32,895 nt of DNA, from contig PCWZ01000088.1 in NCBI GenBank assembly GCA_002796305.1, positions 17,857-50,751 of the forward strand, given 5' to 3'. Within the stretch, counting starts at the first letter, position 1; each line of letters opens with the position of its first letter. This document shows, one piece after another, positions 6,301-32,446 of this stretch. This DNA comes from Deltaproteobacteria bacterium CG11_big_fil_rev_8_21_14_0_20_49_13 (GTDB lineage Bacteria; UBA10199; GCA-002796325; 1-14-0-20-49-13). The translations under genes and the position numbers were made by a program. The notes under the pieces were generated by a model, which worked only from the letters and a program-made list of their open reading frames with translations, made no database searches and was not told where the DNA came from.

Positions 6301-7092
6301 ATGGGCATTAAAGAAAACATTACGATTGTAAGGGAAAAAGTTAACCGCGCCTGTTTAAATTCCGGGCGCGATCCATCTTCAGTTCGGCTCATTGCGGTCT
6401 CAAAGACAAAGCCTGTTGCCGATATTTTAGAGGCCGTTGATGCCGGACAACTTATCTTCGGCGAGAACTATGCCCAAGAACTGCGCGATAAGGCCAGGGA
6501 GTTAGAGGTTGCACCACGCACGGCGCACGACGCGCGGCGCACGGCTATCGAGTGGCACTTCATCGGCCATCTGCAAAAGAACAAGCTGAAATATATCCTG
6601 CCGGTGGCAAGCTGGACGCACACGATAGATTCGGTGGAGTTGCTTGAGACCATCCTGAGCAAAGCGAAGGATCTCATACTCAGAAACGAGGGAGATCCTT
6701 CGCCACCTGAGCCGGCTCAGGATGACAGGCGCGTTATCAACTCTCTTATCGAAGTGAACATTGCCGGCGAAGATTCCAAATCAGGCATATCCCCCGAAAA
6801 CGTCTTTGAACTTGTTAACGCCTTTTCTAAAGCCTGCAAGCCTGCCAACCTGCTAACCTGCAAACTCCGCGGTTTAATGTGTATGCCCCCCTTCTCCTCC
6901 GACCCCGAGACGGGCCGCCCTTATTTTAAGAAATTGAAAGACTTGCTTGATGAAATAAATTCACGTAATATATACCCCGAAAAGCTGACCGAGCTCTCCA
7001 TGGGTACGACACAGGATTTTGAAGTAGCGATAGAAGAGGGAGCAACTATGGTAAGAATAGGATCCGCGATATTCGGAAACCGAAACACGTGA
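6301..7092 (+). CDS. yggS: YggS/PLPBP-family PLP-binding protein with in-frame repeat insertions
   Basis: A 263-residue member of the YggS/PROSC family, a PLP-binding alanine-racemase-like barrel that balances vitamin B6 pools. Family blocks are present: [11 protein letters not shown] (PLP lysine), [61 protein letters not shown] and [10 protein letters not shown]. The usual length is about 225-235; the excess is explained by repeat-derived insertions: four heptamers at 6517-6544 (residues 73-82), a palindrome at 6652-6723 (residues 118-141), and perhaps four octamers at 6830-6861 (residues 177-187). All leave the frame open and the core motifs intact, so the protein is probably functional. 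No Shine-Dalgarno precedes the ATG. It leads yggS-yggT-yggU. Confidence 0.92.
6517..6544. repeat. Four tandem heptamers inside yggS
   Basis: CGCACGG, CGCACGA, CGCGCGG and CGCACGG lie end to end. They encode a basic [10 protein letters not shown]-like segment just before IEWHFIG, where the family normally has a short, variable link. Confidence 0.7.
6652..6723. repeat. Palindromic repeat, family A copy 2, in frame inside yggS
   Basis: Outer arms ATCCTGAGC (6652-6660) and GCTCAGGAT (6715-6723); inner arms GCGAAGGATCTC (6664-6675) and GAGATCCTTCGC (6692-6703), both perfect; and a 16-bp perfect palindrome at 6706-6721 (CCTGAGCCGGCTCAGG). The element is 72 bp, exactly 24 codons, and adds a [11 protein letters not shown]-type loop between a helix and the next beta strand of YggS. 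Confidence 0.85.
6830..6861. repeat. Four tandem octamers inside yggS
   Basis: AAGCCTGC, AAGCCTGC, CAACCTGC and TAACCTGC in a row. They encode KPANLLTC just before the conserved RGLMCMPP block. The period is 8, not 7, so this may be a separate kind of repeat or a chance low-complexity stretch. Confidence 0.5.
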
Positions 7093-7153
7093 TCGGTTAT
7101 CGGTAATCAGTGAACTAAATCACCGATCACTGATTACTGATTACTGATTACCA
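7091..7153. repeat. Heptamer palindrome, family B copy 1, between yggS and yggT
   Basis: The left half is ATCGGTT, ATCGGTA, ATCAGTG (7092-7112). After a 6-bp centre the right half is ATCACCG, ATCACTG, ATTACTG, ATTACTG, ATTACCA (7119-7153), the reverse-complement type. The first bases complete the TGA stop of yggS. The end lies only 6 bp before the yggT ATG, so no normal Shine-Dalgarno remains. Confidence 0.8.
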
Positions 7154-11805: not shown

Positions 11806-12948
11806 TTACGGGATGGTTGCGACCACGGTCAAGGTTGCCATGTCGATGATGGAGATCGTGTTATCATCTATGTTCCCTACATATAAATAAGCGTCAACAC
11901 CGGCCGGGGGGGGACTGTAAAGACCCATGCCGAACGGCTGGCTACCTACGGTTATGTCGGCCCCGCGGACATATCCGGGAATGCCTATGACTGATACCGA
12001 ATTGTCGCCGGTATTCGTCACAAAGATATAATCGGTGGCAATGACCATCTCCTGGGGGTCCGCGTTGGAATCGGCGCCGACGCCGATCGATGTAACTACC
12101 ACGCCGGCATCGTCCTTGGACATAACGGTCGCCGTCGTATTTCCGGTTATCGGTGGAAAAGCCGCAGGGTCCAGCACATAAAGGAGCGGGGTATATTGGT
12201 CGTCAATATACTCCACGTCCGTCATGTATACATAGGTCTCGTCATTGGTCGCCGCGCGGGGACTTAAGAAGTCGCTCACATAATAATCTATATTGTTCTC
12301 ATCAAGATCGAGGACGAACATGCCGCCGGTTGGAATAGTGATGAAGGCCTGTCTCCCGATTATCGTAAGATCGCGCATATCGGCACCGCCAAGTGTGGTA
12401 CCGTCAGAAAGGGCCAGATTGGCGACCGATATAGGGGTCATCGATGCCGGATCCGCCACCGGAAAATAATCTATGGTCGAGTTATATGCGGCAACGTAGA
12501 CGTTGGTGTTCGATGTGTCGCGCTCTATCCCGAACGGATTGGACCCATCCTCGAAATATTCCACTTTCAGAAAATCGGCCGAGGCCTCATCTACATTCAC
12601 ACGGATGATATTATCCACAAGGTCGGCATTGTTCGACGAATATCTATTGGCGACGAATATCACATTGGTCGCAGGATCATAATAGGTATGTCCGCTGAAG
12701 CTGGTTGTCGGGGCCGTGCCTACGAGAGCCGGGATGAGAGGGTCGGCGAGGTCATAGACCTGAAGTGAGCCGTTCTTGTAAAGGACCGTGTTATTGGAAT
12801 TAACAAGATAGAGTCTCTTCGTCGCGGAGTCTATGTTGATGCTAAGCGGGCTCGCGATGTTGTTGCCGATCTCCTTGAATATCTCGTCCCCGGCACAAGA
12901 AGAAAAGAACATGAGCCAGGAGGCAAGAAGCATGATAAAATGCAACAT
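11806..12948 (-). CDS. Lipoprotein with YVTN-type beta-propeller
   Basis: A 380-residue lipoprotein. The signal is MLHFIMLLASWLMFFSSC with the lipobox FSSC. The mature part has repeated blade-like units such as 'LSINIDSATKRLYLVNSNNTVLYKNGSL', 'TYYDPATNVIFVANRYS', 'IATDYIFVTNTGDNSVSVIG', 'AYLYVGNIDDNTISIIDMATLTVVATIP', as in YVTN/NHL-like seven-bladed propellers. It is probably a surface or periplasmic binding scaffold; the ligand is unknown. A longer frame to the ATG at 12996 starts 2 bp after the ppdK stop, but adds a hydrophilic segment made of heptamer repeats, so I prefer 12948, which has AGGAAAG just upstream. Shine-Dalgarno, start and hydrophobic core all lie in a repeat. Confidence 0.82.
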   Translation of the reverse strand: MLHFIMLLASWLMFFSSCAGDEIFKEIGNNIASPLSINIDSATKRLYLVNSNNTVLYKNGSLQVYDLADPLIPALVGTAPTTSFSGHTYYDPATNVIFVANRYSSNNADLVDNIIRVNVDEASADFLKVEYFEDGSNPFGIERDTSNTNVYVAAYNSTIDYFPVADPASMTPISVANLALSDGTTLGGADMRDLTIIGRQAFITIPTGGMFVLDLDENNIDYYVSDFLSPRAATNDETYVYMTDVEYIDDQYTPLLYVLDPAAFPPITGNTTATVMSKDDAGVVVTSIGVGADSNADPQEMVIATDYIFVTNTGDNSVSVIGIPGYVRGADITVGSQPFGMGLYSPPPAGVDAYLYVGNIDDNTISIIDMATLTVVATIP

Positions 12949-12985
12949 GGTCTTTCCTGTTTCCTGCTTCCTGATTCCTACCTCA
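12915..12985. repeat. Heptamer palindrome, family E copy 1, over the start of the propeller lipoprotein
   Basis: On the plus strand the left half is GCCAGGA, GGCAAGA, AGCATGA (12915-12935), then TAAAA and a short gap; the right half is TCTTTCC, TGTTTCC, TGCTTCC, TGATTCC (12951-12978). It shares GGCAAGA, AGCA(A/T)GA, TAAA with the copy at 25983. Read on the minus strand it provides the AGGAAAG ribosome-binding site and codons for the signal-peptide core (FIMLLAS). Confidence 0.75.
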
Positions 12986-12998
12986 GTTGTCTTCATTA

Positions 12999-18887: not shown

Positions 18888-21800
18888 TTGAGCATAAGGG
18901 CATATAGATTAGCGAAAGAGATAGCACGGGAACCGAAGAGGACGATAGCGGTTGTAACGCCGACGGAAAGCCTGGCAAAGAGCTTTGCGAACGACCTCAA
19001 CTTCTTCATAAGCGGCCGCGCCGGTGGAGAGGTCTGCCTTTTTCCCGAACCGGACGCCATCCCCTACACCCATCTAACGACACAACCCGACATCTGGATA
19101 GACCGACTTCGCATCCTTAATAAACTCTACAGCGGCGACGTCCTTTATCTCACAACATCGATCCAGTCGTTCCTCCGAAAGTGCCCTCCTCCCTCGATAT
19201 TCGAAAGATATAAAAAGACCATATATCTTCATGACCTCGTTGACTGCGACGAGCTTTCAAAGTTCCTTATCGAGTGCGGGTACATCAACCAGCCGCTCGT
19301 TGAGGACGAAGGGGCCTTTTCTATAAGGGGCGGTATAATAGACATCTTCTCCCCCGCCATGGAGAGGCCCGTTCGAATAGATCTCGACGGCGACGAAGTG
19401 GCGTCGCTTCGGACCTTCGATGCCGTAACTCAGAGGTCATCTTTCAGCATCTCATCATTTGCCATAATGCCGGCAAGGAACGTCGTCTTGAACGATGAGA
19501 CAAAGGCAAGGGCCCTTGGCCAGCTCAAGGACCTTTGCGACAAGAACGATATCAAGCCAACGGAGCGCAGGGAATTTGCCGAAGGGATAGAGCACAACTT
19601 CTATGCGCAGGCGACAGAGACGCTGATGCCGTTATTCTATGACCATGTCTCGGGACTTAGCGAACAGCTGCCGAAGAACTCCGGCATCTATATTTATGAC
19701 GATATAGAGGTCGCCACAGAAAAAGACAAACTCTTCAAACGACTCCGCGAAGCCAGAGAGAACGCGAAGCATATCGAGCGGATAGTTGCACCGGAGATGA
19801 TATATGAAGCCGATGTCGGAGATCAGAAATCAGAGGTCAGATATCTTAGGTCAGATATCCGACTTCCGACCTCCGACGTCCGGCTTCAATCCGTTGGAAA
19901 AGATGCTATTCCGGCGATAGTTAAGAAGATCCAGAGCTGGCAGCAGCTTGGCCTTCGCATAATACTCACCTGTCACACCACTACCCAGGCGGAAAGGCTC
20001 CTGGACCTCATCCGCTGGCAGGGTCTTGCGGGAGAGATAACGGACAGACCGTTCGGCGAGATACTCACCCTTGGCAGGTCGAACATATGGATAGCGCTGG
20101 GAAAACTGTCGGGCAGTTTTGTCTCCGAGGAAGACAAGCTTGCCATAATAACCGACGAAGAGATATTCGGAAGCAAGACCTCTAAACGCTCGGCTCCGGG
20201 GGAGAACTTTGAGGCCTTCACCGATTTCTCGCAACTAACCGATAACGACCTCGTCATCCACAAGGACCACGGCATCGGGAGATATCTGGGCCTTAAGAAC
20301 CTGACCATAGCCGGAACAAAGAACGACTTCCTAGAACTTCAATATTTGGGTAACGATAAATTATTCCTCCCTGTCTGGAGGATAAACCTCATAAGCAGAT
20401 ACATTGGCGCCGGCGGCGAAGGAGGCGTTTCGCTCGACAAGCTCGGCGGAACAAGGTGGTCCAAGTCCGTTGAAAAGGTGACATCCGCCATAAGGACGAT
20501 GGCGATGGAGCTATTAAAGATCTACGCCACGCGAAAACTGGCAAAGGGCTACGCATTCTCGGCCAGAGACGAGCTCTTTGAAGAGTTCGAGGCGGCCTTC
20601 CCCTTCGATGAGACCCCCGATCAACTTAGGTCCATAGATGAAGTATTAAAGGACATGACCGACGAAAAGACGACCGACCGGCTCATTTGCGGAGATGTGG
20701 GCTACGGCAAGACCGAAGTTGCCATGCGCGCGGCATTCAAGGCGGCGGCCGACAAGAAGCAGGTGGCAATACTCGTCCCCACAACGGTTCTTGCCTTCCA
20801 GCACTATGAGAACTTCATGAGCCGCTTTGCCAACTGGCCGGTGCGTGTCGAAATGCTCTCGCGATTCCGCTCGCGAACGGAGCAAAAGCATGTGGTCGAT
20901 GAACTTTCGCGCGGGCTCGTGGATATCGTGATCGGCACCCATCGCCTCCTTCAACGCGACATCAAATTCGCGGATCTGGGACTCCTTGTTATCGACGAAG
21001 AACACCGCTTTGGCGTCGCGCACAAAGAGAGGATCAAAAGACTTCGCGTCTCCGTCGACACCATAACGATGTCGGCGACCCCAATTCCAAGGACTCTTCA
21101 CATGTCGCTATCCGGCATTCGTGATATCAGCATAATAAATACGCCGCCTGTGAACCGCCTTGCCATCAGGACATATGTCGCCGAGTTCGAAGAGACCCTT
21201 ATTCGCGGAGCTATTATGGCGGAGCTCTCCCGCGGAGGTCAGATCTTTTTTGTCCACAACAGGGTCGAATCGATAGAAAAGATGCACGAACTGCTCGTAA
21301 GACTCGTACCCGAGGCAAAGGTCGTCGTCGGTCACGGCCAGATGGAAGAGGATGATCTGGAAGATGTAATGATAAAGTTCCTTGAAAAAGAAGCGAACAT
21401 ACTCCTTTGCACGACCATCATTGAATCGGGGCTCGATGTGCCATCGGCTAACACCATCATTATAAACCGCGCCGATGCCTTAGGCCTTGCCCAACTTTAC
21501 CAGCTTCGCGGAAGGGTCGGGCGTTCTAACATTCAGGCTTACGCCTATCTTCTGACACCCGGCGACGAGGCGATAAGCCCCATTGCAAACAAGAGACTTG
21601 CCCTGCTTCAGCGTTACACGGAGCTTGGTAGCGGTTTTCAAATAGCCATGCACGATCTGGAGATAAGAGGCGCGGGTAATATATTAGGCGCGCAACAATC
21701 AGGCCACATAAACGCCATCGGTTATGAGATGTACACAGAGCTCTTAGAAAAGACCATCCGCCACATGCAGGGAAAAGATGACGATGAAAAGGAAGATATC

Positions 21801-22292: not shown

Positions 22293-22320
22293 CCCCCCTA
22301 AGGGGTCCGACCCTTTTATT
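22293..22320. terminator. Candidate terminator between convergent mfd and rlmE
   Basis: After mfd the plus strand reads CCCTAAGGGGTCCGACCCTTTTATTT: a short GC stem (GGGTC/GACCC with AAG/CTT around it) followed by TTTTATTT. A run of eight C precedes it. It overlaps the 3' end of rlmE. The stem is short, so efficiency is uncertain; the GGGGTCCGACCC core may itself be a small dispersed repeat. Confidence 0.45.
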
Positions 22321-22984
22321 TGGATTTAAATCCGAGAGCTACGATATATATCTCTTTTGAACCTTCGCGGGTGGCAGGGGGGAGGTACTGAGATACTTTT
22401 TTGAAGTGCTCGCGCAGGTCGCGCTTGAAATCCTCTGCCTCTTTCCCCTGAAATATCTTGGCGGCAAAGTTACCGCCTTCTTTTAACATCTTTTTGGCGG
22501 TGTCGAGCGCCATGGTACAGAGCTCATACGAAAGAAAACAGTCCCTGAATGCGACACCGCTGGTGTTGGGGGCCATGTCGGAGACGATGACATCGACCAA
22601 ACCTGTTATCGGTGATCGGTGATCGGCTATCGGTAACTTTTTTGCATCTGCTGATGACTGATCACTGATTACCGATGACATAATTATGTCTTTTAAACTA
22701 TCAATCGCCGCATCGTCATTGATATCTCCCTTTATAAATTTAACGTTGTGTTTAAGGCTTATCCTTATCGGCAGGATGTCTATTCCCACCACAAGCCCCT
22801 TAGACCCCACCATTCCTCCAAGCACTTCAAGCCAGCCACCTGGGGCGCATCCCAGATCTAAGATGAGATCGTTCCTCTGAACGATCCTAAACTTCTCCTG
22901 TATCTGCTCGAGCTTGTAGCTCGCCCTTGAAGCGCGGCCCTCGGCCTTTGCTTTCTTATAGTAATGATCTTTGCGATTATACAT
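22316..22984 (-). CDS. rlmE: RlmE (FtsJ) 23S rRNA 2'-O-methyltransferase with repeat insertion
   Basis: A 222-residue RlmE-family protein; the family methylates the ribose of U2552 in 23S rRNA. Visible: SYKLEQI with the catalytic Lys24, LDLGCAPGGW for S-adenosylmethionine (about 42-51), SDMAPNTSG with the catalytic Asp136, GGNFAAKIFQG with the second Lys, and EIYIVALGF with the Glu, so the K-D-K-E tetrad is complete. Residues 102-128 (SSVISDQSSADAKK...SPITG) are absent from the family and are encoded by a heptamer palindrome placed between 'SLKDII' and 'LVDVIVSDMAP'. I chose ATG 22984, 5 bp after the stop of the upstream HTH gene; the frame could run 30 codons further. Length without the insert is normal (about 195). 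Confidence 0.93.
   Translation of the reverse strand: MYNRKDHYYKKAKAEGRASRASYKLEQIQEKFRIVQRNDLILDLGCAPGGWLEVLGGMVGSKGLVVGIDILPIRISLKHNVKFIKGDINDDAAIDSLKDIIMSSVISDQSSADAKKLPIADHRSPITGLVDVIVSDMAPNTSGVAFRDCFLSYELCTMALDTAKKMLKEGGNFAAKIFQGKEAEDFKRDLREHFKKVSQYLPPATREGSKEIYIVALGFKSK
22604..22681. repeat. Heptamer palindrome, family B copy 2, in frame inside rlmE
   Basis: The left half is ATCGGTG, ATCGGTG, ATCGGCT, ATCGGTA (22608-22635) and the right half ATGACTG, ATCACTG, ATTACCG, ATGACAT (22654-22681). The arms 22608-22623 and 22661-22676 pair at 14 of 16 positions. It is the same family as the copy between yggS and yggT (7091-7153). Confidence 0.87.
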
Positions 22985-22989
22985 CTGGT

Positions 22990-23187
22990 TTAGACTGGCG
23001 GAAAAACCTTTTCTTTGTCCTTTAAGGTGAGCCCAAGGGCTAAAATGATCTTTCTCATGGTATCCATGCGGCATGGCATACCCTTTTCAATGCGGTCTAT
23101 CGTGAGCGCGGAGATACCGGCCTTTCTTGCCAGTTCTGCCTTACTGACCAAAAGATCTTCGCGGATCTTCCTGACATTATTTTTCAT
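22990..23187 (-). CDS. Small Xre-type helix-turn-helix regulator
   Basis: A 65-residue protein that is little more than one helix-turn-helix: VRKIREDLLVSKAELARKAGISALTIDRIEKGMPCRMDTMRKIILALGLTLKDK. It should bind DNA as a dimer. I chose the ATG at 23187, because GAGG lies 8 nt upstream; the frame is open back to 23259. A strong sigma-70-like promoter lies just upstream, and rlmE starts 5 bp after its stop, so the two are probably one transcript. The target is unknown; autoregulation is usual for such small regulators. Confidence 0.85.
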   Translation of the reverse strand: MKNNVRKIREDLLVSKAELARKAGISALTIDRIEKGMPCRMDTMRKIILALGLTLKDKEKVFPPV

Positions 23188-23336: not shown

Positions 23337-24137
23337 CTAAAATAGACCTAAATACCAATTGAGGATCTTTTCTCCAAAGAAGAGATAAATATAGGCGGCG
23401 GCCACTAAAAAAGGGCCGAAGGGCATTGCGTATTTAAGGCCTTTCTTAAAGACTAACATTAGGGTGAGGCCAACTATCGAACCGAGCATGGAGCTTGCAA
23501 GTAGTATGAAAATAATGGCTTTCCACCCAAAGAAGGCCCCGAGCATGCAGGCAAGTTTTACGTCCCCTCCCCCCAAACCTTCCTGTTTTTTGAGCCATTC
23601 ATATCCAAGACCGACCAGGCAGAGGAACCCTCCGCCGACCAGTATGCCCAGGATTATATCAACTAAAACGGGGGTTACGGGTCCATGCATGAAGGCAAGT
23701 CTTGCCATGACCCCGGCGGCTATTCCGGGAATGGATATGACGTCGGGAATGAGCCTGTGTTCAAGGTCTATGAAGGTAACGACTATCAAAGGGGCTACAA
23801 GGAAGCAGAAATATATCAGATACTGCGGGATGCTCTGAAAGTGAAAATATGTGGCCACAGAAAGGAAAAGCGTCAAGAGTTCAACTATTAGGTAGCGTAG
23901 CGAGATCTTTGATTGACAGTGGCGGCACTGCCCCTGAAGGACAATATAGCTAAGGAGCGGCACGTTATCGTACCAGCTTAACTGTTTGTGGCATCTCGGG
24001 CAATGAGAGCGCGGCGCAACTACCGATCTTCCTAAAGGGAGCCTGTAGATGCAGACGTTTAAGAAGCTTCCAACACATGCACCGAATATTCCAGCCACCA
24101 GATATGCGAACCACGGTGGCAATTGTGTAATGTCCAT
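23337..24137 (-). CDS. pilD: Prepilin peptidase / type IV leader peptidase
   Basis: A 266-residue membrane protease that cleaves and N-methylates type IV pilin-like precursors. N-terminal 'FGACVGSFLNVCIYRLPLGRS' is followed by the cytoplasmic zinc module CPRC (46-49) and CRHC (71-74), then six or so hydrophobic segments with the catalytic aspartates in 'FIDLEHRLIPD' (Asp124) and 'GLGGGDVKL' (Asp192). I start at ATG 24137, which gives the family N-terminus; a longer frame (to 24200) would begin with residues encoded by a palindromic repeat (RQAQDERG). No pilus genes lie in the window, so its substrates are elsewhere. Confidence 0.93.
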   Translation of the reverse strand: MDITQLPPWFAYLVAGIFGACVGSFLNVCIYRLPLGRSVVAPRSHCPRCHKQLSWYDNVPLLSYIVLQGQCRHCQSKISLRYLIVELLTLFLSVATYFHFQSIPQYLIYFCFLVAPLIVVTFIDLEHRLIPDVISIPGIAAGVMARLAFMHGPVTPVLVDIILGILVGGGFLCLVGLGYEWLKKQEGLGGGDVKLACMLGAFFGWKAIIFILLASSMLGSIVGLTLMLVFKKGLKYAMPFGPFLVAAAYIYLFFGEKILNWYLGLF

Positions 24138-24146
24138 AGTCCCTCG

Positions 24147-24209
24147 CTCATCCTGAGCTTGTCGAAGGATGATCCGTTCATAGTTCGACACGCTCACCAT
24201 GAACGGATG
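24147..24209. repeat. Palindromic repeat, family A copy 3, upstream of the prepilin peptidase
   Basis: CTCATCCTGAGCTTGTCGAAGG is followed by ATCCGTTCAT (24172-24181) and, after a spacer with CGACACGCTCACC, ATGAACGGAT (24199-24208), a perfect 10-bp inverted pair. It sits in the divergent gap before pilD and gatC and would encode an AQDER segment if pilD began further upstream. Confidence 0.75.
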
Positions 24210-24585: not shown

Positions 24586-26013
24586 ATGGGAATAAGAGAG
24601 ATACATAATAGACTGATCAAGGGCGAGACGACCTCTGTTGCGCTTACCAAAGAACACTTGAATAAGGCGAAGACCTCCAAACTCAACACATTCATCACCG
24701 TCTGCGAAGAGAGGGCGCTTGTACAGGCCGAGGCCGCAGACAAAAGAATAAAAGAAGGAAATGCGCTTCCCCTCACCGGCATTCCCTTAGGCGTTAAGGA
24801 TCTGCTGACAGTAAGGGGCGTCAAGACCACCTGCGGTTCAAAGATACTTGAAAACTATATTGCACCTTACAGCGCCACCGTTGTGGAAAAACTTGAAACG
24901 GCCGGCGCCGTTATCTTGGGAAAGCTTAACATGGACGAGTTCGCGATGGGCTCATCCAACGAACATTCGGCCTTTGGCCCCGTTAAGAACCCGATAGACG
25001 AAACAAGGATACCCGGAGGCTCGAGCGGCGGGAGCGCTGCGGCGGCAGCTGCTGGAGAATGCATAGCGACCTTAGGCACGGATACCGGCGGTTCGATAAG
25101 ACAGCCGGCCGCCATGTGCGGAGTTGTTGGGCTAAAACCTACCTATGGCCGCGTCAGCCGCTACGGTCTCACCGCATTTGCTTCATCGCTCGACCAAATA
25201 GGACCTCTGGCGGCAAATGTAGAAGATGCGGCGATAATGCTCGAAACCATCTCCGGCCACGACCCGAAAGATGCAACATCTGTCAATAGGCCCGTTCCCG
25301 ACTACACCGTTGCCCTAAAAAAAGACGTTAAAGGCCTCAAGATAGGCGTTCCGAAGGAATATTTTATTAAGGGCCTCTCTGAAGAGATCGGATCTTCGGT
25401 TAAATCCGCTATTGAAGAACTGAAAAAGATGGGGGCGGAGGTGAAGGAAATATCGCTTCCTCACACGGATCATGCTCTGGCATGTTATTACATAATCGCA
25501 CCCGCCGAATGTAGCGCGAACCTTGCGCGTTTTGACGGCGTTCGTTATGGAAGGCGCGCGAAAGATGTAAAAGACATAAAAGAGCTCTATGAACGTTCCC
25601 GCGCCGAAGGTTTTGGCCCGGAGGTGACACTCCGGATAATGGTCGGGACCTACGTCCTCTCTTCCGGCTATTATGACGCCTACTATCGAAAGGCGCAGTG
25701 TGCGCGCACGTTGATAACCAAAGATTTTACGGAAGCATTCCAGAGGGTCGATGTTATAATGACGCCCACGACCCCCACAACGGCCTTTAAGCTCGGCGAA
25801 AAGACGGACGATCCGTTGCAGATGTATCTTTCGGATATATTCACGATACCGGTGAATTTGGCGGGGCTCCCCGCCATGTCGATGCCGTGCGGAAAGGACA
25901 AGCTGGGGTTGCCGATAGGGATGCAGATAATAGGCAGGCATTTTGACGAAGAGACTATTTTAAGGGTGGGATATAATTATGAGGCAGGAGGCGGGAGGCA
26001 AGAAGCAAGATAA
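24586..26013 (+). CDS. gatA: Asp/Glu-tRNA amidotransferase subunit A
   Basis: A 475-residue amidase that frees ammonia from glutamine for conversion of Glu-tRNA-Gln or Asp-tRNA-Asn. The Ser-cisSer-Lys triad is visible: Lys71 (GVKDLL), Ser146 (PGGSSGGS) and Ser170 (DTGGSIRQP), with the expected spacing. The C-terminus is odd: after '[14 protein letters not shown]' the family continues with a short helix, but here AGGGRQEAR and the TAA stop come from heptamer repeats (25983-26010), so the native tail was probably lost. The core is intact. Confidence 0.95.
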
Positions 26014-26049
26014 ATTCCTGCTTCATGCATCTTGTTTCCTGCTTCGGCA
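25983..26049. repeat. Heptamer palindrome, family E copy 2, across the gatA-gatB junction
   Basis: The left half is GGCAGGA, GGCGGGA, GGCAAGA, AGCAAGA (25983-26010), then TAAA, then the right half TTCCTGC, TTCATGC, ATCTTGT, TTCCTGC, TTCGGCA (26015-26049). The halves face each other. It encodes the end and stop of gatA and leaves only a few bases before the gatB start. Confidence 0.85.
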
Positions 26050-31647: not shown

Positions 31648-32376
31648 TCAATTTTGAGCCAGTTTCTTCACTATAAAAGTTGCCACATGCTCGGCATAGG
31701 TGCCACGCCCGAATCCTGCGTCAAATCCAAGTTCCAGCGCAAGTTTGTGGCTTATCCTGGGGCCGCCCACAACGACAATGAACTTGTCGCGGAGTTTCTC
31801 CGCCTCCAAGAGCTCCACAAGATTCGTCAGATTATGTATGTGGGCATCTTTTTGAGTGACTATCTGTGAAACGATAATGGCATCGGCCTTGTTTTTCTTT
31901 GCGAACTCAATGAGCTTTTCGTTGGGGACCTGAGCGCCAAGATTATGGGCGTTCATCATCTTATAACGCTCTAGCCCAAAATGATGGTTATATCCCTTCA
32001 TGTTCATGATGGCGTCGATACCTACGGTATGCGCATCGAACCCTGTAGCCGCCCCGACTACCATCACTTTGCGGCCTATCTTCTCCTTGATGAAGGCGTT
32101 GACGGCGTCCATCGTCATGACGTCGTCGTGATAGACGTTCTGCTCCACATGCACCTGATCGTAATCTATCCCCGTCTCGGTCTTGCCGTAGGCGACAAAG
32201 AAGGTAAAGTCGTCCGAAAGAGGCTCTGCGTGGACGATGTCGCATGTTGCAAAGCCCAGCTTCTGCACGAAGAGCCTTGCCGCTTCGTGGGCCTTGGGTG
32301 AATCGGCTACCGGAAGCGTGAAGGACAATTGCACCGCCCCATCGTTCAAAGTATCGCCATATGGTTTGATCAGCAT
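31648..32376 (-). CDS. kamE: Lysine 5,6-aminomutase beta subunit
   Basis: A 242-residue B12-binding subunit. Lysine 5,6-aminomutase moves the terminal amino group of D-lysine (or beta-lysine) using adenosylcobalamin and PLP, in lysine fermentation. Visible: KPYGDTLNDGAVQLSFTLP, the cobalamin motif DAHTVG (114-119), MNMKGY with Lys127 as the likely PLP-binding lysine, 'ERYKMMNAHNLGAQV', 'VSQIVTQKDAHIHNL' and 'VVVGGPRISHKLALELGFDAGFG'. Relatives have about 20 more residues in front of KPYGDT; here a palindromic repeat fills that place. I use ATG 32376; ATG 32424 would add 16 repeat-encoded residues. Confidence 0.93.
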   Translation of the reverse strand: MLIKPYGDTLNDGAVQLSFTLPVADSPKAHEAARLFVQKLGFATCDIVHAEPLSDDFTFFVAYGKTETGIDYDQVHVEQNVYHDDVMTMDAVNAFIKEKIGRKVMVVGAATGFDAHTVGIDAIMNMKGYNHHFGLERYKMMNAHNLGAQVPNEKLIEFAKKNKADAIIVSQIVTQKDAHIHNLTNLVELLEAEKLRDKFIVVVGGPRISHKLALELGFDAGFGRGTYAEHVATFIVKKLAQN

Positions 32377-32385
32377 ATAAATTCG

Positions 32386-32446
32386 TTCATCCTGAGCCGG
32401 TAGAAGGACGACGATCGTACTCATCCTTCGACAAGCTCAGGATGAG
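32386..32446. repeat. Palindromic repeat, family A copy 5, between kamD and kamE
   Basis: Arms TTCATCCTGAG (32386-32396) and CTCAGGATGAG (32436-32446) pair at 10 of 11; the inner AGAAGGA and TCCTTC also pair. It spans nearly all the gap from the kamD stop to the kamE core and, read on the minus strand, encodes VVLLPAQDER in frame with kamE. Confidence 0.85.

Follow-up and report, generated by a model that had tools for sequence, protein, structure and literature searches.

Many bacteria have an excess of heptamer repeats, the spread of which is without explanation. Another kind of short repeat, the Rickettsia palindromic elements (RPEs), was reportedly described by Ogata in 2000. RPEs measure 105-146 bp (PMC2229807). 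Geobacter metallireducens has Gmet_H4 elements of four heptanucleotides with the consensus GGACCGG, present in 49 copies, and a class 3 of paired heptads, MTYCTGA, whose arrays lie on opposite strands at variable distance (PMC2700814). TAACTGA repeats occur in Beggiatoaceae, cyanobacteria and Bacteroidetes (PMC4679880), and the heptameric repeats GGGAATC and GGGGAYT are known from Xanthomonas and Nostoc (PMC4692102).

Here we analyse a heptad palindrome in the draft genome of Deltaproteobacteria bacterium CG11_big_fil_rev_8_21_14_0_20_49_13 (1.96 Mb, 92 contigs, approximately 96% complete). The window is a 32,895-nucleotide stretch of contig PCWZ01000088.1; together with approximately 289 kb of further stretches, mostly picked around matches, it makes up the 322 kb of DNA that we read. 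Because the heptads lie in frame in well-characterised enzymes whose close relatives lack them or carry other repeats at those positions, it becomes possible to measure directly how they arrived (by insertion or by replacement), what they cost the protein and how repeat families turn over.

A heptad palindrome lies in frame within rlmE

The gene at 22316-23074 on the minus strand is rlmE, which encodes an FtsJ/RrmJ 23S rRNA 2'-O-methyltransferase of 252 residues (Pfam FtsJ, E 1.3e-47). Its true start is likely Met31, at 22984: read from there, the protein opens with MYNRKDHYY, and family-mates begin MYNRKD. Between 22606 and 22678 the gene holds four TNATCRG heptads that face four in reverse complement across a 17-nt loop. 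Arm 1 (22606-22633, plus strand) reads TTATCGG TGATCGG TGATCGG CTATCGG with a G before it, the central spacer occupies 22634-22650, and arm 2 (22651-22678, minus strand), also with a G before it, reads TCATCGG TAATCAG TGATCAG TCATCAG on the coding strand, or CTGATGA CTGATCA CTGATTA CCGATGA on the plus strand. The whole element is about 73-78 nt long, its arms pair over approximately 30 bp, and as single-stranded DNA it folds with z = -5.3, a value equalled by 0 of 200 shuffles. The first-pass annotation had reported just such a palindrome in frame, and it had placed the extra residues at 102-128, ahead of the SDMAPNTSG motif and with all four catalytic residues intact. Both descriptions held. 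The insert (22604-22681, minus strand) codes for MSSVISDQSSADAKKLPIADHRSPIT, 25-26 residues corresponding to 132-157 of the 252-residue frame, or to 102-127 if counting starts from Met31. Alignment to relatives shows that the catalytic K/D/K/E set is kept as K54, D166, K206 and E241.

RlmE proteins from two same-family genera (L015 and L016), 66% and 61% identical to this one outside the insert, lack it, giving a net gain here of 25 and 26 residues. Almost every other class member that we aligned is likewise without it, as are the more distant relatives. The sole exception is genome G018, in which the same RlmE loop bears an unrelated multi-copy repeat, matched 38 times within that genome, showing that the site is permissive. 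The genomes closest by RlmE are the deltaproteobacterial MAGs CAIPVD01 and JACPAJ01; a target-site duplication is not readable at the approximately 60-66% RlmE identity of the nearest relatives.

In an AlphaFold model of RlmE built with 33 relatives (mean pLDDT 87), the core blocks mostly exceed 93, and the lowest-confidence parts are the N-terminal 35 or so residues and the insert. The top PDB match by both sequence and fold is E. coli FtsJ (1eiz), with a TM score of 0.91 over the target. The model gives the insert itself as a loop, with block pLDDT of 58-72, that connects helix 121-138 to strand 160-165; judging by this model it appears to be a harmless surface loop on a confident FtsJ fold.

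The same unit recurs across the genome

A three-heptad pattern matched the genome 97 times compared with nine for the reversed control, so the heptads are not a product of chance. Within the 322 kb we counted 33 clusters matching this pattern, a few of them sister motifs such as TGAACAG and TGATGGG; 17 lie in genes, 15 are intergenic and one is at an edge, showing that rlmE is not an isolated case. The genome holds about 35 heptad sites in all, approximately half of them in genes, with carB, ispF, folC, pyrK, accC, uvrD, comEC and hemN among the hosts of coding copies, and related stretches occur in approximately 15 other genes sampled from the same genome. An intergenic copy of the same family, also claimed previously, proved real and is placed at 7089-7151, where it forms a head-to-head palindrome between yggS and a YggT-like gene (fold z = -5.5).

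The arms follow a strict plan. We worked from a curated list, a loose automatic heptad scan being noisy for runs of three. Exactly four heptads make up 26 of the 34 curated TNATCRG arms, and a G precedes 32 of them. Within the heptad, bases 2 and 6 are free to vary and the other five positions are nearly fixed; because copies differ freely at these two bases, no recent burst from a single master copy is visible. All TNATCRG palindromes in the cluster list read TNATCRG inward from both sides. The window alone contains seven arrays at period 7 compared with 0-1 at other periods except 14, while the period-7 excess over the sampled stretches is biased, those stretches having mostly been chosen around matches. 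Across the class, six of 46 genomes contain TNATCRG copies (a phylum-level search covered the same 46), a patchy pattern in which the two same-family genomes have none.

This recurrence bears on whether the rlmE insert could have a purely local origin: ordinary slippage in place, a natural insertion specific to this RlmE family, or an error of assembly. Slippage is a general tendency of tandem heptads, but one motif, with the same unit length and boundary, is found at approximately 35 unrelated sites, relatives do not conserve the insert, and on either side of it the reading frame and the catalytic motifs are undamaged. We therefore regard a local origin as very improbable, and reject random slippage and assembly error on the strength of the recurring sites and the intact frame.

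Coding copies are filtered for stop codons

Each forward heptad contains TGA or TAA and consecutive heptads pass through all three frames, so a forward run should close any gene. In the coding copies of rlmE, carB and pyrK, all five forward phase-0 heptads on the coding strand carry TCA instead, including the in-phase heptads of rlmE arm 2; out-of-phase forward heptads in the same three genes retain TGA or TAA, with one TTG. At the corresponding base 2, intergenic copies have G 26, A 18, T 16 and C 3 times. Reverse heptads in phase 2 are CCG in 13 cases and CCT in one, so that all 14 read CGA or CTA; intergenic counts at base 6 are G 31, A 27 and T 5. Coding copies lie mostly in the one stop-free orientation. 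An open frame requires such filtering, which therefore shows that frames are maintained and not, by itself, that the encoded stretch has a function.

Selection on the DNA or RNA could be imagined in another way, with the heptads serving as binding sites for a protein or RNA regulator or as mRNA hairpins. Such sites might be expected from a heptad with five of seven positions nearly fixed and two free, from the fixed count of four and its boundary, and from intergenic copies that adjoin genes, and a regulatory role has been proposed for the TAACTGA repeats of Beggiatoaceae (PMC4679880). On the other hand, roughly one in two sampled clusters is intragenic, mostly in the stop-free orientation and in genes that have no function in common, and a hairpin mismatch test of strand (G.T versus A.C) across 18 palindromes of mixed families gave a weak preference for one folding strand (P about 0.03). 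We consider a regulatory explanation unlikely.

Most single-arm copies leave protein length almost unchanged

Entry as an insertion, as pictured by the first-pass annotation, holds for rlmE (+25/+26 residues) and is matched by a net gain of nine residues over same-family orthologs in trmB, but it fails for most single-arm copies. These elements encode 10-14 residues, and yet the net change is 0/0 in ispF, +1 in uvrD, +1/+2 in pyrK, +1/-2 in bla, +2/+2 in comEC and +2 in bcr (compared with G002); within the folC loop it is approximately 0 compared with G002. IspF aligns without gaps across the element to the solved structure 5b8f, and AccC has two residues fewer than 9eb7 at its element. In an independent genome, G040, a LITDHQSPIT element sits in a hydrogenase-maturation protease of near normal length. 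The fit is poor for hemN, which is five residues shorter than in G001 and longer than in G002, in a loop whose length is variable in the family. The ispF site of G001 retains a decayed heptad pattern, and the ispF copy may predate the split between the genera. As far as sequence comparison can tell, most single-arm copies are length-neutral replacements of native codons, which simple insertion does not predict.

One response is that the repeats overwrite DNA instead of inserting, with a heptad tract copied over an approximately equal length of native sequence by templated repair, by single-stranded DNA annealing at forks, or by repair of a break in which the flanks are lost; in rlmE, trmB and carB, less native DNA would then have disappeared. 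The near-zero changes in ispF, uvrD, pyrK, bla, comEC, bcr and folC, the gap-free IspF alignment, the AccC difference and the G040 protease are all consistent with this, as is the completeness of the arms at four heptads, an outcome that is not favoured if insertions were trimmed afterwards. However, rlmE, trmB and carB (approximately 23 residues over the class norm) are plain gains, hemN loop length differs widely across the family, and selection may have re-trimmed loops to their native length. Our estimate is that overwriting is a rather doubtful account.

Relatives carry other repeats in the same loops

The carB site allows the same loop to be followed across genomes. The CarB stretch from NPRASR to KFPGVD is 61-63 residues long in 28 of 32 genomes and 85 residues here, where it contains the heptad palindrome. 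It is 83 residues in G002, with a GTCATTGCGAG...CTCGCAATGAC repeat, 70 in G001, with a CCCTCC...GGAGGG palindrome, and 69 in G029, where an ASEAKQSS segment resembles the G002-type repeat when compared by eye. G002 also has YATCAAC heptads in frame in pyrK, hemN and two further genes; the pyrK and hemN sites bear TTACAAG- and TGATCGG-type heptads here. YATCAAC matched G002 22 times, which is little more than the 12 of the reversed control, and the in-gene cases come from reading the sequence and not from this count. In the present genome, pyrK (L081:16968-17792) contains three repeat-like stretches, namely PLLCKEGRGEV...NPPLTKGREL, the TTACAAG heptads and a TNATCRG arm, and folC (L089:6550-7890) also has a VTGIPACAGTT-like stretch.

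Such reuse raises the idea that arms spread by length-conserving overwriting at a few permissive loops, each genus re-filling them with its own heptad motif or palindrome, with the seven-base step and the count of four set by common machinery and the motif turning over between lineages. We offer this as a conjecture, with low but not negligible expectation that it is right. Whatever their origin, these sites serve as a natural guide to where the loops of essential-type enzymes can accept 10-30 foreign residues.

A probable tolerated copy of a dispersed repeat

In our view the rlmE insert is probably a copy, in frame and tolerated, of a short palindromic repeat that is dispersed and specific to this lineage, two-armed, near-neutral and mobilised in trans. 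The arm would be the unit G(TNATCRG)x4, with two arms placed head to head on either side of a short spacer, and a complete two-armed copy would have entered rlmE at a solvent-exposed loop beside the catalytic SDMAPNTSG strand. The insert is presumably translated. Three features would account for its survival: the loop can accommodate additional residues, the added length is divisible by three, and heptads in the stop-prone phases carry TCA or CGA in place of TGA or TAA. The element would thus be a small non-autonomous repeat, neutral or nearly so for the host protein, spread by machinery encoded elsewhere. The earlier proposal that a mobile-like repeat had entered rlmE without breaking it gains support from the empty site in relatives, the many genomic copies and the modelled loop, with mobility as the part that we infer.

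Searches for a mobiliser covered two protein families. Eight Y1_Tnp/RAYT loci were found, four with some heptad array within approximately 1.5 kb; none of these arrays is TNATCRG and they have no consistent place. The loci of three RVT_1 matches to reverse transcriptases contained no perfect tandem heptad.

Other repeats in and near coding sequences

Several further repeats were noticed. A GAAGCAN-type heptad palindrome at 12913-12977 covers the start of a predicted lipoprotein gene (11806-12996, minus strand), in which the n-region GIRKQETGK and the hydrophobic core IMLLASWLM, preceding FSSC, come from the two arms of the palindrome; from the sequence, the signal peptide looks to have been built from the repeat. 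Predicted secreted proteins with heptads in the N-terminal or signal-peptide region are encoded at L080:3574-4443 (minus), L078:14395-15000 (plus) and L079:2364-3614 (minus), the heptad-coded stretches being ILLFASCFLLLSANA, FTVYCSLVTG and LITDNRSPFT, respectively. Repeats thus feed new coding sequence, apparently including signal peptides.

In mfd (19812-19887), a palindrome of another heptad family with 35-bp arms lies in frame and codes for 25 residues. In yggS there appear to be in-frame GCACGAC heptads coding for 12 residues (6511-6543) and, at about 6700-6770, a 19-residue stretch resembling a common dispersed repeat. A GAGGCAG/GAAGCAA heptad palindrome occupies the gatA C-terminus and the gatA-gatB junction (25981-26045), and an intergenic array of ten GTTCACT heptads lies at L074:11444-11522. 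Near their N-termini, the products of 23337-24200 (ILRQAQDERG) and 31648-32424 (VLLPAQDERI) resemble a dispersed RQAQDER-type repeat.

Comparison with known systems

The likeness to RPEs, proposed from the start, is one of behaviour: in both, a palindrome occurs between genes and in frame within conserved protein genes, where the protein tolerates it, and the AlphaFold loop on an intact core suggests a surface position compatible with the fold here. The element is not a Rickettsia element. It is approximately 73-78 nt long compared with 105-146 bp for RPEs (PMC2229807), it is made of 7-nt units, often as a single length-neutral arm, and it belongs to a deltaproteobacterial MAG lineage; the two are set apart by host and length.

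In its unit the repeat is closer to the heptad arrays. It shares with Geobacter H4 a run of exactly four tandem heptads found both between and within genes (here 26 of 34 arms and 17 of 33 clusters), with the consensus TNATCRG in place of GGACCGG; the Geobacter heptads are read as regulatory, and the available part of that source describes no analysis of ortholog length or frame (PMC2700814). One array here, TTATCAG x4 at L074:4134-4161, is the reverse complement of a TAACTGA array, although most other arms are degenerate. The TAACTGA repeats are mostly direct, with one indirect, and lie just upstream of start codons, whereas about half of the copies here are in genes; their ORF copies are mostly at protein ends, and none is described as a loop insertion in a conserved enzyme (PMC4679880). 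The Xanthomonas and Nostoc repeats are likewise heptameric, mostly of four units and with some inverted pairs, but they are G-rich, presented as intergenic and putatively quadruplex-forming (PMC4692102).

REP/REPIN sequences and bacterial MITEs are also short, non-autonomous, high-copy palindromes. The arms here have no GTAG/CGTC tag and no linked RAYT, none of the eight Y1_Tnp genes being flanked by TNATCRG. Of MITE traits, inverted arms are present, no parent could be tied to them in the Y1_Tnp and RVT_1 searches, and a duplication is unreadable at approximately 60-66% identity. The limited literature consulted did not describe, in combination, internal in-frame copies across many conserved enzymes, replacement without change of length and loops that unrelated repeats use again, and we do not claim priority for it. 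The simplest account is that the element is functionally RPE-like but belongs to the heptad class known from Geobacter, Beggiatoaceae and Xanthomonas/Nostoc, and it appears to represent a type of 'coding selfish repeat' that is already known, here in a form that is new and unusually pervasive.
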